Below, in pieces: positions 2,828 through 43,677 of a DNA stretch of 64,000 nt. This DNA is from Clostridiales bacterium (GTDB lineage Bacteria; Bacillota; Clostridia; Lachnospirales; Lachnospiraceae). Made by a program: the position numbers and the translations under genes. How positions within the stretch are numbered: the first letter of the stretch is position 1; each line of letters opens with the position of its first letter. The stretch is taken from assembly GCA_029338615.1 (NCBI GenBank), contig JAQYAS010000066.1:1-64000 (forward strand). The letters run 5' to 3'. The notes under the pieces are model-generated. The model ran no database searches, had not been told where the DNA came from, and saw nothing but the letters and a program-made list of their open reading frames with translations.

Positions 2828-5275
2828 CTATTCCTCCAGACTGAGATCCTCTGCCATCCCCTGTGGCAGCCTCCTGAGCGGTGCATATATACTTCCAAAT
2901 ACAAGAACAGCCGATAACACAATTCCAATGACTATAGCCATGATCGAAGGAGCAAATCTCATCGGGATCAACAACCTTATAAAGTAATACTCCTCATAAT
3001 ACACCCCTGTTCCTACCACTATTCCTATCATGCCTGACCACACGACAGCCATGATTCCTTCCAGCAGAACAGTTTTAATAAGACGTTTTCTCGACATTCC
3101 TATGACTCTCAGCTGTGCAAATTCTTTCCTTCTCATGTGAAGATTTCCAGCCGTAGCATTTATGATATTCACAGCTCCAAGTGCAAATACAAGAGCAGCT
3201 ATCATCAGTATGACCCTGTTAAAATTTCTAAAGCCCTGAAGCAGCCTGAGATTCTCCAAGTATACATATATATCAAAGTCTGTTCCATCATCGATGGCCA
3301 GTTCTGTATAAATATCATCGATGGCTCTTCTGTTCATGATCTTTGAGTCTATCTGATATTCCATTCCTGATATCTGATCCTCTGTATATCCCGTTTCAGA
3401 AAAATAATTATCCAGCGACGTATATACCTGCAGTTCTGATTCTCCGGTGATCTTATCTCCGACATCAAGTATTCCTTCCACAACGTATGTCTTGTAATGC
3501 CCCTCAGTTATAAGTCTCTCATATACTTCCTTTGCTATCTTCATCCGCTCTTTTACATCAGGATCAAAATTCTGATCAACAGTTTCACCATTGCTATCCG
3601 CATTCTTGTCGCCACCCTTTCTAGCTATTCCGGCTGACTCCATCGCTTTCCTGGTCTCAGAGAACAACAAGTCTGTATCTACTATATCTATAGTGTCTCC
3701 CACTCTGTAATCATTCAGCTTTATATGCTTTAGTGTCTCATACGTTACATCACCGTCCAGCAGCTCGTTATACCACTGGCTGCTTCCTGCGGTAACTATC
3801 ACTATGCCCTGTTCGTCAACATCCACCGTACCATCCACAAGATACTGCTTCAGCTCATCTAGTCCATTTTTATCCAGTCCCCTGAATTTTATCTGAGATA
3901 ATATCATCCCCGATGCCTCTGCCGGAGACGGTGAATCATAATTCTTTTTTATCGTCTCAAGATAATCTCCATACATGCCTGTTCCCTTGTAATCATCGGT
4001 GTACTTGGAGTACAGGCCATCAATATCTGTTACATACACATATGACTCATATACCTTTCTGGCAGCCAGCACATACCTGCTGTCAGCAAGTCTCTGCATA
4101 TTCTCAATATCCGGCAGGCTGGCCTCAATAGATTCTATATCCTGAAACTGGCCAGGATCCCCATATACTTCAAGCTGATATGGACCGTATTTGCTGTCTA
4201 AATAATCAACAGCATTGTCCAGTGCTCCCGCCACACTCATCACAGCTACAAGCGCTGCTATACTTACCGAAAGCGAAACAACCGTCTTTACGAATCTCCC
4301 GCGGTTCCTGAGTACGCTTTTTCTTGCGTATTCACCTTCCATTCCAAAGATCCTGCCCATAAGTCCTCTGCCCCGATCCTTTATCCGACCGGTTTTTATC
4401 CTGAACTGTCCTCTGACCGCACTTATAGGTGTCATGCTCACAATAACCTTACAGTTATCTCTCATAACAAAATACAGATCTCCAAGATAACAGATGAGCA
4501 CAGGAATAACCGGTACCAGATGATATCCGGCACTGACTCCTGTAAACACTCCAATTACAATGGTGATCAGTCCCCCCAGTATAATTCCTATTAGTATTCC
4601 AACACACTCAAGTATTGCTCCCATTAGATAGACTATTCTCTTGAGCTGTCCCTTGGTTGCTCCAATACATCTGAGTATTCCATAATCCTTTATCTGCTCC
4701 ATCATAAACATCTGTACAGTGTTTCTGATGATCCCAACTGCAAATATGGCAAATATATATGCTATGAGAAGTATTGTCCATAAAATTACCATAAGCATGG
4801 AACCGTCTGTCGTTCCGTCCTGAAAATACAGCAGCGCCAGACCATCGTTCAGCTCCGCATTTATATCATATTTTCCTGCTATCACTTTCATATTGTGTTC
4901 CATGCGGTATGGATTATTTCCTGTGGCGTATATCGCATTCTTATACAACACCTTGTCTGGAGAATCCCCACTCCAATCAGTATATTCATATCTGCCTATA
5001 TATGCCTTCTCTATCATCTCGTCAGCAGCTATCTGCTCTGCCTGGGACCTGCTCTCCGCCATTAACACAAACTCATAATCCCTGTCTTTGCGCTCTTCAT
5101 CCCGGGCATGAAGGAGATAAGAATACGCAATATTAAGTCCGCCATACAACACTATCACTGTGATCACCACACCTATGATAGTGATAAGGCTTCTTCCCCT
5201 GTTCGCCTTCAGATATTTTTTTGCCAGATCTTTATAATCCCCCACTTCAGTTCCTCCCTGTATAAGCCCTGCCAT
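2828..5275 (-). CDS. FtsX-family ABC transporter permease (815 aa ORF; start may be GTG near 5245)
   Basis: N-terminal TM, large extracellular region, FtsX-like blocks (YGILRCIGATKGQLKRIVYLMGAILE; FAQLRVIGMSRKRLIKTVLLEGIMAV). Confidence 0.85.
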   Translation of the reverse strand: MAGLIQGGTEVGDYKDLAKKYLKANRGRSLITIIGVVITVIVLYGGLNIAYSYLLHARDEERKDRDYEFVLMAESRSQAEQIAADEMIEKAYIGRYEYTDWSGDSPDKVLYKNAIYATGNNPYRMEHNMKVIAGKYDINAELNDGLALLYFQDGTTDGSMLMVILWTILLIAYIFAIFAVGIIRNTVQMFMMEQIKDYGILRCIGATKGQLKRIVYLMGAILECVGILIGIILGGLITIVIGVFTGVSAGYHLVPVIPVLICYLGDLYFVMRDNCKVIVSMTPISAVRGQFRIKTGRIKDRGRGLMGRIFGMEGEYARKSVLRNRGRFVKTVVSLSVSIAALVAVMSVAGALDNAVDYLDSKYGPYQLEVYGDPGQFQDIESIEASLPDIENMQRLADSRYVLAARKVYESYVYVTDIDGLYSKYTDDYKGTGMYGDYLETIKKNYDSPSPAEASGMILSQIKFRGLDKNGLDELKQYLVDGTVDVDEQGIVIVTAGSSQWYNELLDGDVTYETLKHIKLNDYRVGDTIDIVDTDLLFSETRKAMESAGIARKGGDKNADSNGETVDQNFDPDVKERMKIAKEVYERLITEGHYKTYVVEGILDVGDKITGESELQVYTSLDNYFSETGYTEDQISGMEYQIDSKIMNRRAIDDIYTELAIDDGTDFDIYVYLENLRLLQGFRNFNRVILMIAALVFALGAVNIINATAGNLHMRRKEFAQLRVIGMSRKRLIKTVLLEGIMAVVWSGMIGIVVGTGVYYEEYYFIRLLIPMRFAPSIMAIVIGIVLSAVLVFGSIYAPLRRLPQGMAEDLSLEE

Positions 5276-5439
5276 ACAAAAAAGATGGCATGCATCATCT
5301 CTTCATTCAATAATGATACTTTACCATCTCTTTCTTACTTTTCAGTGACTATATGATTTTCTTTTCTTACAGTTTAGTAAGATAACACCATTTCCGGGGA
5401 CGGAGGTGCCTGACCCCTCCGTCCCCACAAGTCATTATA

Positions 5440-6474
5440 TTATATATGTACAAATGTTATCTCAAAACGTGTATACTCGTTCAACACGCTCTTGACTGTT
5501 ATCCTGCCTCCCATACCTTCCACGATAGACTTTGTGAGAGAAAGTCCGATTCCCACACTGTTGGGATTGACTTCCTGGTTCACTCTGTAAAACCTTTTAA
5601 ATATATTTGGAAGTTCTTCCTCCGGAATTCCCATTCCATGATCCATGACATATATTCTCGCAAACAGATCATTCTGTTCCACGCTGAGACCGATCTCCGT
5701 CCCATTTTCAGAATAGTCCGAAGCATTCTTGAGCAGATTGATGATTGCCTCTGTCAGCCAGTCTCCGTCACAGTCCAGCTTTATGTTACTATCACACTTT
5801 ATGACAACCTTCTGCTCTCTCTTATCAGTCAGATAACGCACTCCATCCACAGCCTGGGCACATATCACATCCATATTCCAACTCTGTTTCTGAAATTCTA
5901 TCGCTCCTGCCTCAATACGTGCAAGCTTAAGCAGGGACAGCACCATCCACTCCATCCTTGAAAGCTGATTCTGAGCCTCTGTAAGCACCTGTCTTTTCCT
6001 ATAAGGATCTGTGACCTTATCATCCAGCAACATATCCACGAATATATTGAGTGAGGCAAGCGGGGTCTTAAGCTGGTGCGATATATCTGATATTATATCT
6101 CTGAGAAATGTTTTCTCTGAAAGCTCCTTTTCCCTGCTCTCCCGCAGAAAAGACACCATCTTATAAAAATTCGTATATAATATTCCAATGGTTCCCTGCC
6201 TGAATTCCTCCTCAGTAACAATATCAGGAGAATCCATCACCTTCACCATCTTTTCAGATATATTCTCAACCTCACTATACACTTCATCTATGCGCCTGTA
6301 ACCTGCTATGCCTGATATCACCAGCGCCGCCGCTATCATCACTGTAGATATGACCGTATATAGTACATTTCCGCCAAATGCAATATACAGCCACACAGCA
6401 AGTATCACAAGTGATACAATACCTATCCATACAAAGCTGTATATATATTTCTTTCTCTCATACGAACTCTTCAT
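5440..6474 (-). CDS. Two-component sensor histidine kinase
   Basis: DISHQLKTPLASLNIF H-box, N-box NLLKNASDYSENGTEI, G-box GMGIPEEELPNIFKRFYR. Confidence 0.93.
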   Translation of the reverse strand: MKSSYERKKYIYSFVWIGIVSLVILAVWLYIAFGGNVLYTVISTVMIAAALVISGIAGYRRIDEVYSEVENISEKMVKVMDSPDIVTEEEFRQGTIGILYTNFYKMVSFLRESREKELSEKTFLRDIISDISHQLKTPLASLNIFVDMLLDDKVTDPYRKRQVLTEAQNQLSRMEWMVLSLLKLARIEAGAIEFQKQSWNMDVICAQAVDGVRYLTDKREQKVVIKCDSNIKLDCDGDWLTEAIINLLKNASDYSENGTEIGLSVEQNDLFARIYVMDHGMGIPEEELPNIFKRFYRVNQEVNPNSVGIGLSLTKSIVEGMGGRITVKSVLNEYTRFEITFVHI

Positions 6475-8270: not shown

Positions 8271-8486
8271 TCACTTCCGTCCATCCATATCCTCATCCCG
8301 GACATATCTCGCATTAAACTCCATATTGATCTCACGGAGCTCCTTCTTCCCATCAATATAATCCTGGTACATCTCTGTGATACCACACATGCATCCGTCA
8401 CAATAAGCATCCATATTTCCCAGAGAATCGGCAACTATCTGCTCCCGCTCCTGTCTGGTCGTATCCTTGATAAGATATCCCGCCAT
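8271..8486 (-). CDS. Small conserved-looking protein (71 aa) with CDGCMCG motif
   Basis: MAGYLIKDTTRQEREQIVADSLGNMDAYCDGCMCGITEMYQDYIDGKKELREINMEFNARYV...; GAGG ribosome-binding site just upstream of 8486. Confidence 0.65.
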   Translation of the reverse strand: MAGYLIKDTTRQEREQIVADSLGNMDAYCDGCMCGITEMYQDYIDGKKELREINMEFNARYVRDEDMDGRK

Positions 8487-8510
8487 AAAAACCTCCTCGC
8501 AATAAAAACA

Positions 8511-8719
8511 GGCACTTGTAGTTTTCTGACGAAGAATATGAAACATATATACAAACAATAACGAAAGCGACCGATCTTCAGCGCTTACCTGCTGATGTGA
8601 AAGCCGCAGCGCCCTTATCGCGGCTGAAACATCACGCAGATGTAAGCCAGCTGAAGTGAGTGTAGCTGAATGTGTTTGTATATATGTCTTCATATTCAAG
8701 TCTAAAAATTACAAGTGCC
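8511..8719. repeat. 209-bp long imperfect inverted repeat
   Basis: GGCACTTGTA(8511-8520)/TACAAGTGCC(8710-8719), GAATATGAA/TTCATATTC, CATATATACAAACA/TGTTTGTATATATG, TTCAGC/GCTGAA, CTTAC/GTAAG, GATGT/ACATC, AGCCGC/GCGGCT in register. Confidence 0.9.
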
Positions 8720-8734
8720 GTCCGTCTATCTAAA

Positions 8735-10486
8735 TTACTGTCTAACCTTAATGTGAACCTCACGGAGCTGCTGCTCTGTAACCTCGCCAGGTGCTCCACA
8801 CATAAGATCCTGTGCATTTCCATTCATTGGGAATGGAATGACCTCTCTGATGTTCTCCTCATTTCTAAGAAGCATGATCATTCTGTCCACACCAGGAGCC
8901 ATACCTGCATGAGGTGGTGCTCCAAACTGGAATGCATTGTAGAGTGCTCCGAACTTCTCCTTCAGATCATCCTCTGTGTATCCTGCAATTTCAAATGCCT
9001 TGACCATGATCTTCATGTCGTGGTTTCTTACAGCACCTGATGAAAGCTCGATACCATTGCAGACGATGTCGTACTGGTAAGCAAGGATATCAAGTGGATC
9101 CTTCTCATTTAACGCCTCAAGTCCGCCCTGTGGCATTGAGAACGGATTGTGAGTGAAGATGATCTTCTTGCTCTCCTTGTCGTACTCGTACATTGGGAAG
9201 TCATTTATATAGCAGAAACGGAATGCGTTCTTCTCGTTGAGGTCAAGTCTGTTGCCAAGCTCAACTCTGATCTGTCCTGCAAATGACGCTGCAAGCTCAG
9301 GCGTATCTGCGATGAAGAAGATAGTATCTCCGGCCGTAAGGCCTGCAAGCTCTGCGATCTCACCCTTCATATCATCAGGAATGAACTTGTCGATAGGTCC
9401 CTTGTATGACATATCATCAAGGATCTCCAGATATCCAAGACCGCCCATGCCGATGCTCTGTGCAAACTTGAGCATCTTCTCATGCTGTCCCTTTGAAAGT
9501 TTCTTGTGTACATTGATGGCACGCACTGTCTTGCCATGGAATGGCTTGAATGTACATCTCTGGAAGAAATCTGTGAGATCTATTATTCTGAGTGGGTTTC
9601 TGAGGTCAGGCTTATCTGTACCGAACTCAAGCATAGCCTGCTTGTAGCTAATGATAGGATATGGAGCCTGTGTAACCACTGCGCCCTCAGGTGCAAACTT
9701 CTCAAATGTTGCTGAGAGGACTTCCTCTCCAACCTTGAATACGTCCTCCTGTGTTGCAAAGCTCATCTCAAAGTCAAGCTGGTAGAACTCACCAGGTGAA
9801 CGGTCTGCTCTTGCATCCTCATCTCTGAAACAAGGAGCTATCTGGAAGTACTTGTCAAATCCTGATACCATGAGAAGCTGCTTGTACTGCTGAGGTGCCT
9901 GTGGAAGTGCATAGAACTTGCCCTTGAACTTTCTTGATGGCACGATGTAATCTCTTGCGCCCTCAGGTGATGATGCGCAGAGGATAGGTGTCTGGATCTC
10001 AAGAAATCCCATCTCAGTCATCTTCTGACGAAGGTAGCTGATGACCTGACTTCTGAATATCATGTTGTCCTTAACCTTCTTGTTTCTGAGGTCAAGATAT
10101 CTGTACTTGAGTCTCACATCCTCACGTGTCTCCTTGGATGTCTGGATCTCAAATGGAATCTGCTTATATACCTTACCTAGTATCTCTACAGTCTTCGCCT
10201 CAAGCTCGATAGTACCTGTAGGGATCTTTGGGTTGTATGTCTCCTCATCTCTGTGCTCAACGATACCCTCGATGGATACACAGTCCTCCTTTGTTATTCC
10301 TTCAAGAAGTGATGTGTCTCTCATTACCACCTGGAGCACGCCGTACATATCACGAAGATCGATAAATGATACTCCGCCATGGTCACGGATATTCTCTACC
10401 CATCCGGCAACCTTAAGTGTCTGTCCCACATCGCCCTCAGTGATCTCGTTCATTGTTCTGTTACGATAAATGTTCTCGATTGTCAT
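8735..10486 (-). CDS. aspS: Aspartyl-tRNA synthetase
   Basis: Class II AspRS motifs (RYLDLRNKKVKDNMIFRSQV, FRDEDARADRSPGEFYQLDFEMSF, GMAPGVDRMIMLL). Confidence 0.97.
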   Translation of the reverse strand: MTIENIYRNRTMNEITEGDVGQTLKVAGWVENIRDHGGVSFIDLRDMYGVLQVVMRDTSLLEGITKEDCVSIEGIVEHRDEETYNPKIPTGTIELEAKTVEILGKVYKQIPFEIQTSKETREDVRLKYRYLDLRNKKVKDNMIFRSQVISYLRQKMTEMGFLEIQTPILCASSPEGARDYIVPSRKFKGKFYALPQAPQQYKQLLMVSGFDKYFQIAPCFRDEDARADRSPGEFYQLDFEMSFATQEDVFKVGEEVLSATFEKFAPEGAVVTQAPYPIISYKQAMLEFGTDKPDLRNPLRIIDLTDFFQRCTFKPFHGKTVRAINVHKKLSKGQHEKMLKFAQSIGMGGLGYLEILDDMSYKGPIDKFIPDDMKGEIAELAGLTAGDTIFFIADTPELAASFAGQIRVELGNRLDLNEKNAFRFCYINDFPMYEYDKESKKIIFTHNPFSMPQGGLEALNEKDPLDILAYQYDIVCNGIELSSGAVRNHDMKIMVKAFEIAGYTEDDLKEKFGALYNAFQFGAPPHAGMAPGVDRMIMLLRNEENIREVIPFPMNGNAQDLMCGAPGEVTEQQLREVHIKVRQ

Positions 10487-10585
10487 CTGTTCTCTCCTTT
10501 TCTTTATTATTTGCCTGTGGCTTTTTATCCACATTGACTTTTTCAGGATTACGCACCGGCTGTTATTTCTCTTGCAAATAGAAAA

Positions 10586-31931: not shown

Positions 31932-32006
31932 CGGGGTGTGGCTCAGCTTGGCTAGAGCGCTTGATTTGGGATCAAGAGGTCGCAGGTTCGAATCCTGTCA
32001 CCCCGA
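31932..32006 (+). tRNA. tRNA-Pro(TGG)
   Basis: Anticodon loop TTTGGGA, acceptor CGGGGTG/CACCCCG. Confidence 0.97.
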
Positions 32007-32036
32007 CTTATAATCCAAAACACTGTTAAGCATTAT

Positions 32037-32107
32037 GCGGGTGTAGTTCAATGGTAGAACACTAGCCTTCCAAGCTAGATACGTGGGTTCGATTCCCATC
32101 ACCCGCT
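32037..32107 (+). tRNA. tRNA-Gly(TCC)
   Basis: Anticodon loop CTTCCAA, acceptor GCGGGTG/CACCCGC. Confidence 0.97.
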
Positions 32108-32142
32108 CTTTATTTTCGCTAATATACAGCGGGAATTGATAT

Positions 32143-32216
<74 letters not shown>

Positions 32217-32294
32217 TTTTTTTATCTTAGCTACTACTACTGTTAGCAGGCTAAGATATATTTTTATAAAATAACATTTATTTTATAAGCCTAT

Positions 32295-32369
32295 GGTGGG
32301 TATGGCGCAGTTGGCTAGCGCGCCAGATTGTGGCTCTGGAGGCCGAGGGTTCGAGTCCCTCTATCCACC
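32295..32369 (+). tRNA. tRNA-His(GTG)
   Basis: Anticodon GTG, extra 5' G opposite C73. Confidence 0.96.
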
Positions 32370-32401
32370 CTATTCTTTATCGCGTATGTAAGCGATGCTA
32401 T

Positions 32402-32474
32402 TGGGCTATCGCCAAGCGGTAAGGCACAGGACTTTGACTCCTGCATCTCGCTGGTTCGAATCCAGCTAGCCCAG
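32402..32474 (+). tRNA. tRNA-Gln(TTG)
   Basis: Anticodon TTG, acceptor TGGGCTA/TAGCCCA. Confidence 0.96.
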
Positions 32475-32494
32475 TTTTTTAAAGTCCTAATTAT

Positions 32495-32567
32495 GGGCCA
32501 TTAGCTCAGGCGGTAGAGCACTTGACTTTTAATCAAGTTGTCCGGGGTTCGAGTCCCCGATGGCTCA
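32495..32567 (+). tRNA. tRNA-Lys(TTT)
   Basis: Anticodon loop CTTTTAA. Confidence 0.96.
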
Positions 32568-32601
32568 CTACTCCCTTCTACATATGAAGGGCATTTTTTT
32601 T

Positions 32602-32681
32602 GCGGATATGGCGGAACTGGCAGACGCGCTAGACTTAGGATCTAGTCCTTCGGGGTGCAGGTTCGATTCCTGTTATCCGCA
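32602..32681 (+). tRNA. tRNA-Leu(TAG)
   Basis: Class II tRNA with variable arm; anticodon TAG. Confidence 0.95.
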
Positions 32682-43317: not shown

Positions 43318-43676
43318 TATGAGTTGGATAAGTGATCGCGGCTGCATTTATGCAGGTGAGGAAAGTCCGGGCTTCACAGGGCAGGATGCCGGATAACGTC
43401 CGGTGGAGGCGACTCCCAGGCCAGTGCAACAGAAATATACCGCCATCTTAGATGGTAAGGGTGGAAAGGCGAGGTAAGAGCTCACCGCTGCTGTGGTAAC
43501 ATAGCAGGCTCTGTAAACCCCATCCGAAGCAAGACCAAATATAGTCTCTCTGAGGGACTTGTGGAATGATACAGTTGCCCGCTGCATTCCAGGTAGGTTG
43601 CTTGAGATTTATGGCAACATAAATCCTAGATAGATGATCACTCCAGACATAACCCGGCTTATAGTCCAACTCATAA
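43318..43676 (+). ncRNA. rnpB: RNase P RNA (class A)
   Basis: GAGGAAAGTCCGGGCTTCACAGGGCAGGATGCCGG, AGAGCTCACCG, GTAAACCCCATCCGAAGCAAGACCAAAT, GACATAACCCGGCTTATAG; ends pair GAGTTGGA/TCCAACTC. Confidence 0.97.
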
Positions 43677-43677
43677 C

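Follow-up and report, generated by a model that had tools for sequence, protein, structure and literature searches.

The hairpin behind aspS

Behind aspS, in the 64,000 nucleotides of Clostridiales DNA analysed here (contig JAQYAS010000066.1; the whole stretch is called the window), lies a long imperfect inverted repeat, which a first-pass annotation made from the sequence had placed at 8511-8719. The hairpin is one copy of a dispersed element family, with about 27 copies in this bacterium, and we regard it as probably a palindromic piece of mobile DNA, non-autonomous and folding on itself over its whole ~200-230 bp, akin to miniature inverted-repeat transposable elements (MITEs) and repetitive extragenic palindromes (REPs). 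We favour this reading because the family is dispersed and has a conserved core, carries terminal tags, differs in its sites between close relatives, has spread recently in several genera and, in one of them, has left target duplications.

Folding of region 8500-8730 as RNA gave -101.8 kcal/mol on the forward (+) strand (z = -13.6 against 200 shuffles with a mean of -47.5) and -95.2 kcal/mol on the reverse (-) strand (z = -9.9), a stability that no shuffled sequence reached on either strand, and across all 209 bases the element shares 71% identity with its reverse complement. The long inverted repeat of the first-pass annotation is thereby confirmed and its position stands, while its extent had been drawn slightly too small. 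Aligned tagged copies of the genus place a left tail, CAG, at 8509-8511 (+), just outside the full-length imperfect palindrome at 8512-8718, which folds as a hairpin or cruciform on both strands; the consensus bases of this tail are present in 12/15 (C), 13/15 (A) and 12/15 (G) of the copies aligned. On the other side, at 8719-8726 (+), lies the terminal tag recognised from motif counts in genus sequence; it reads CGTCCGTC, or GACGGACG on the strand of aspS. Within the palindrome, a conserved structured core at 8551-8677 (+) is matched by the covariance model R1 with 118.8 bits (E 1.1e-30), the window copy being part of the seed. The apical loop AGCGCCCTTATC at 8608-8619 (+), seen in the fold and as invariant columns of the alignment of cores (A1), is the best conserved unpaired stretch of the element.

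The gene aspS, encoding aspartyl-tRNA synthetase (8735-10534, -; Pfam PF00152, PF01336 and PF02938), ends at 8735 with its stop codon 8 nt from the tag. Beyond the hairpin follow the ribosome-binding site (8497-8492) and a 71-aa open reading frame (ORF; 8271-8486, -), for which a Pfam search gave no match. The setting originally described, after the aspS stop and before this ribosome-binding site, is correct. The accompanying statement that the repeat lacks a T-run does not hold for the aspS strand, where TGTTTTTATT comes after the hairpin: the minus strand at the exit reads ...CAAGTGCC-TGTTTTTATTG (8510-8500), and the T-rich TGTTTTTATTG at 8500-8510 (-), which adjoins the hairpin, is terminator-like. 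Transcription of aspS is probably terminated or attenuated at the window's element, ahead of the 71-aa gene. A 142-aa ORF that would start with TTG at 8699 spans the hairpin and, as first suspected, is best taken as an artefact.

A dispersed family with variable arms

A blast search with the 209-base element turned up partial relatives elsewhere in its own genome, and one congener has a copy that is 97% identical. The aligned cores share a 39-pair consensus in which 28 pairs show double-sided changes, and the covariance model returned 27 matches in the window's genome (weakest E 0.003), so the hairpin is not a single feature; two congeners gave a further 12 and 6 matches, and two more had none (presence in 3/5 congeners, the window's genome included). 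Compensatory changes and further genomic copies, on whose absence the first-pass annotation had said its proposal would fall, are thus both present. A strict-filter covariance scan of 397 sampled genomes from 335 genera of the taxonomic family, presumably Lachnospiraceae, detected the element in 10/397 genomes and 9/335 genera, and four of these searched at full sensitivity yielded 20, 28, 15 and 13 matches. No Rfam model matched the locus, even with the threshold relaxed to E 10, or any of the sampled copies, phage and plasmid collections held no sequence match to the element, and no description of the family was found in Rfam or the searched literature. A degenerate-pattern search of a collection of genome contigs produced three chance hits, which the covariance model did not confirm.

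Across copies, a core of ~126 nt is conserved in structure and loops, whereas the outer arms are unrelated in sequence between copies, yet nearly always self-pairing. Copies in the window's genus carry CAG just left of the palindrome and CGTCCGTC just right of it. Within 565 kb of sequence from this genus, 24 of the 31 occurrences of CGTCCGTC flank an element on its 3' side, and the 7 away from elements compare with an average of 10.9 for permuted motifs in that sequence. Where tag and gene could both be placed, the CGTC end is in most cases 1-8 nt behind the stop codon of that gene. Of 69 copies, 48 have a gene reading towards them on the tag side and 47 have one on the left. On the left (aspS-exit) side an A-run of at least four was counted in 35/60 copies and a T-run in 20/60. 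Because A-runs precede and T-runs follow the hairpin in about 60% of copies, many could act as bidirectional terminators; the T-run that an intrinsic terminator would carry after its GC-rich hairpin is present in the window copy, as TGTTTTTATTG on the aspS strand, and in about 60% of copies.

Some copies stand close together. Four lie head to tail with a period of about 215 bp at locus L067 (genome G321, contig C31, ~4779-5554), and in G170 (L254, L255, L257 and L259) two copies lie head to head ~65 bp apart, forming ~430-bp composites that are themselves recurrent and resemble REP dimers. The extra sequence in G170 had been considered as part of a transposon, an idea that was rejected since it is this second copy.

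Site polymorphism and a target-duplicating subfamily

The aspS site is occupied in G000 and in its closest congener, G004, whose element there is 97% identical, whereas G003, G002 and G001 have unrelated sequence and no element behind the gene. Comparison of G000 with G004 revealed empty, remnant and replaced element sites, and the element turns over fast between close species at gene 3' ends. At one further pair of loci in these genomes (L101 and L117) identity is 96% in the core and 100% in the arms, against only 80-85% in the flanking genes, which may reflect recent transfer or conversion.

Genome G402, from a related genus, holds 18 copies at unrelated sites, most with 221 bp between CAG and CTG (a ~229-bp element). 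Their termini, GTTACAG..CTGTAAC, are terminal inverted repeats (TIRs) set in unrelated flanks; in the window's genus the inverted ends are the palindrome itself, and the tags outside it differ from each other. Compared in register, the 8-bp flanks of the G402 copies gave 98/144 matches against 40.6 for shuffled pairings (z 9.4), and three flank pairs are perfect. This agreement is the footprint of transposition and shows that those copies moved as DNA; the target duplication is shown for this one subfamily only. Among the candidates of the first-pass annotation, the MITE-like element is the one supported, by dispersed copies, presence and absence in congeners, near-identical copies at unrelated sites, and the G402 termini with their 8-bp duplications. 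In four G402 elements (L210, L211, L212 and L226) another palindrome, GTGCTGAACGTCCAGTGGACGTTCGTTTAGCAC, lies inside the core or replaces part of it, as if a second repeat had been inserted or the core swapped.

Bacterial MITEs that fold over their full length are one of the nearest parallels. Like these, among them the Bacillus cereus repeat bcr1, which has been described as MITE-like (PMC3446304), the element is short, non-coding, multi-copy, hairpin-forming and non-autonomous, and lies in untranslated regions (UTRs) or between genes. TIRs and target duplication extend the likeness for the G402 subfamily, which has all that defines a MITE apart from the missing parent: a parental transposase with the same ends was not found, G402 alone having been searched for it. 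However, a classical MITE conserves its ends, whereas here the arms vary between copies and the internal core is conserved. Integron attC sites, with conserved outer R boxes, a variable centre and an integrase, show the reverse of this layout.

Several observations weigh against a mobile DNA element. In the window's genus a search over many offsets gave no target duplication, the best z being 2.5, and no transposase was recognised next to inspected copies. No pair of G402 ends surrounds a longer insert in that genome, so no autonomous parent with matching ends was seen there. The IS200/RAYT domain Y1_Tnp (PF01797), which marks the cognate transposase of GTAG-REPs, had no match in G000, G205, G390, G254, G076 or G170, all of which bear the element, and a RAYT/Y1 transposase was accordingly rejected as a universal partner. 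In addition, some unpaired nucleotides of the core are conserved and G.T is mildly in excess on the + strand, as function at the RNA level would also give. A composite or parental transposon was considered for inverted pairs in G205 and set aside, since the ORFs they enclose look unlike transposases by eye, no family search having been run on them.

Restored pairing and the alternatives to a mobile element

Over 73 distinct copies, double-sided changes occur in 38/39 core pairs, and the covariation score is 0.637, compared with 0.195 for shuffled and at most 0.088 for slid alignments. By this measure the element looks like a conserved RNA, yet the evidence from sequence comparison points to DNA, because wobble-type mismatches fall almost equally on the two strands and the arms change in concert. 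Wobble-type mismatches over whole hairpins number 76 on the + strand and 71 on the - strand; the core cells, counted with a filter that left out two loop-side pairs dominated by G.T, comprise 89 G.T, 45 A.C and 2400 Watson-Crick, and none of these wobble and mismatch counts is corrected for relatedness of the copies. In the end arms of the G402 copies there are 10 concerted two-arm changes, including a paired one-base deletion, and 0 double changes that break pairing, alongside 20 changes in one arm only, 13 of which fall in two degenerate copies.

The arms turn over at different speeds from site to site. For L103/L109, identity between species is 100% in one arm and 67% in the other; for L092/L112 it is 94-97% in flanks and core and 54-58% in the arms; for the window copy and L114 the arms reach 96-100%. 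No donor for the replaced arms was found among the element loci compared, the whole genome not having been searched. Template switching in palindromes is a documented process that gives concerted double substitutions and restores stems without wobble intermediates (PMC8794818). As a mutational mechanism it does not define a family of elements; in the present case its substrate would be a transposon, and the result would mimic the covariation of an RNA. Template switching inside the palindrome would account for the restored pairing, but not for the site-to-site difference in the speed of arm turnover. Orthologous sites with kept core and flanks and replaced arms, such as L092/L112, make this explanation testable.

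The alternative that survives best, although we consider it unlikely, is that only the core is mobile and inserts into the loops of existing intrinsic terminators, the variable outer arms being host terminator stems. In its favour are the arms, which are unrelated between copies but nearly always palindromic, A-rich before, T-rich after and behind stop codons, and two 99%-identical G205 copies that share only 158 bp and differ in their outer arms. G004 (L173) also has the arms and tag of the L090 site without the core, and the G000 copy (L090) has GTATATATAC on either side of the extra DNA; this difference could equally be a slippage deletion between the 10-bp repeats, which is indistinguishable from insertion with a 10-bp duplication. 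In G402, however, core and arms travel together inside the target duplication, shared arms occur also in G187, G390, G254 and G076, and the CGTCCGTC tag, itself outside the arms, is rare without the core.

Among known elements the best likeness is to the CGTC-tagged REPs described by Di Nocera et al. 2013 (PMC3733652). These extragenic palindromes have stems of 8-9 bp, loops of 4-5 nt, an unpaired CGTC tag and a short tail; they lie near ORF 3' ends, form dimers and have no dedicated transposase known, and the text of that paper names no Clostridia. The element here is alike in its dispersal, its unpaired tag (CGTC(CGTC) at one end) and short tail (3 nt at the other), its location behind ORFs and its dimers, which are head to head in G170, and differs by its ~200-bp palindrome, its conserved multi-loop core and the doubling of the tag. 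By analogy it is plausible that it works like a CGTC-REP, but the claim that it is one fails on size. We think it distinctly improbable that the family is a giant relative of these REPs whose folded single strand an HUH-type enzyme would move. The traits just listed and the lack of a visible target duplication in the tagged genus would fit, but the stems measure tens of bp instead of 8-9 bp, Y1_Tnp is without a match in the six genomes named above, and G402 carries its 8-bp target duplications. Duplications of 8 bp are not expected of HUH-type chemistry.

Most doubtful of all is a structured RNA, be it a 3'-UTR, a terminator or a dsRNA-processing element, under selection as such and multiplied by occasional duplication, for which the very strong covariation, the conserved internal and apical loops, the site right behind stop codons, the T-runs at hairpin exits in about 60% of copies and the mild + strand G.T excess in the core (89:45) all speak, but which sits poorly with wobble-type mismatches that show no strand bias when whole hairpins are counted and are infrequent in the core, with the TIRs and 8-bp duplications of G402, with the patchy occurrence and with the lack of an Rfam relative. 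The cis-regulatory RNA and RNase III site that the first-pass annotation had also entertained are less likely: the pairing, nearly strand-symmetric and concerted in the way it evolves, fits DNA better than RNA.

For the MITE/REP-like mobile element that we prefer, the following scheme can be put forward. A putative trans-acting transposase or single-stranded DNA-processing enzyme would recognise the folded core or the tagged ends and move the element. Copies may survive best right behind stop codons, where the hairpin would serve as a (bidirectional) terminator, and their position there could reflect insertion preference or survival. Template switching during replication would copy one arm onto the other and keep the arms complementary, their sequence drifting while the core is held. 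More tentatively, and as a possibility we would not call likely, the family may represent a class of mobile DNA that is recognised as a folded single strand via its conserved central core, has its arms rewritten by template switching or swapped with host terminators, and is served by no known transposase family. If this is true, such a class would give textbook RNA-like covariation without selection as RNA. The element is in any case a caution for RNA discovery: 38/39 pairs covary, though in a nearly strand-symmetric and concerted pattern, as copying within a DNA palindrome would make.

A few minor observations concern other structured features. Weak model matches at L092:12430-12550 (-), L112:3500-3620 (+) and L019 near 112 seemingly belong to a second hairpin repeat (..TGTGAAAACTTGACATGTAGCGTCAGCCC..CCGAAGGCGAC..) common to G000 and G004. 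Beside one element copy, L013:1746-1889 has a cobalamin riboswitch-like match of 29.2 bits, just below the gathering score. The window itself also holds a seven-tRNA gene cluster and a class A RNase P RNA gene (31932-32681 and 43320-43677).
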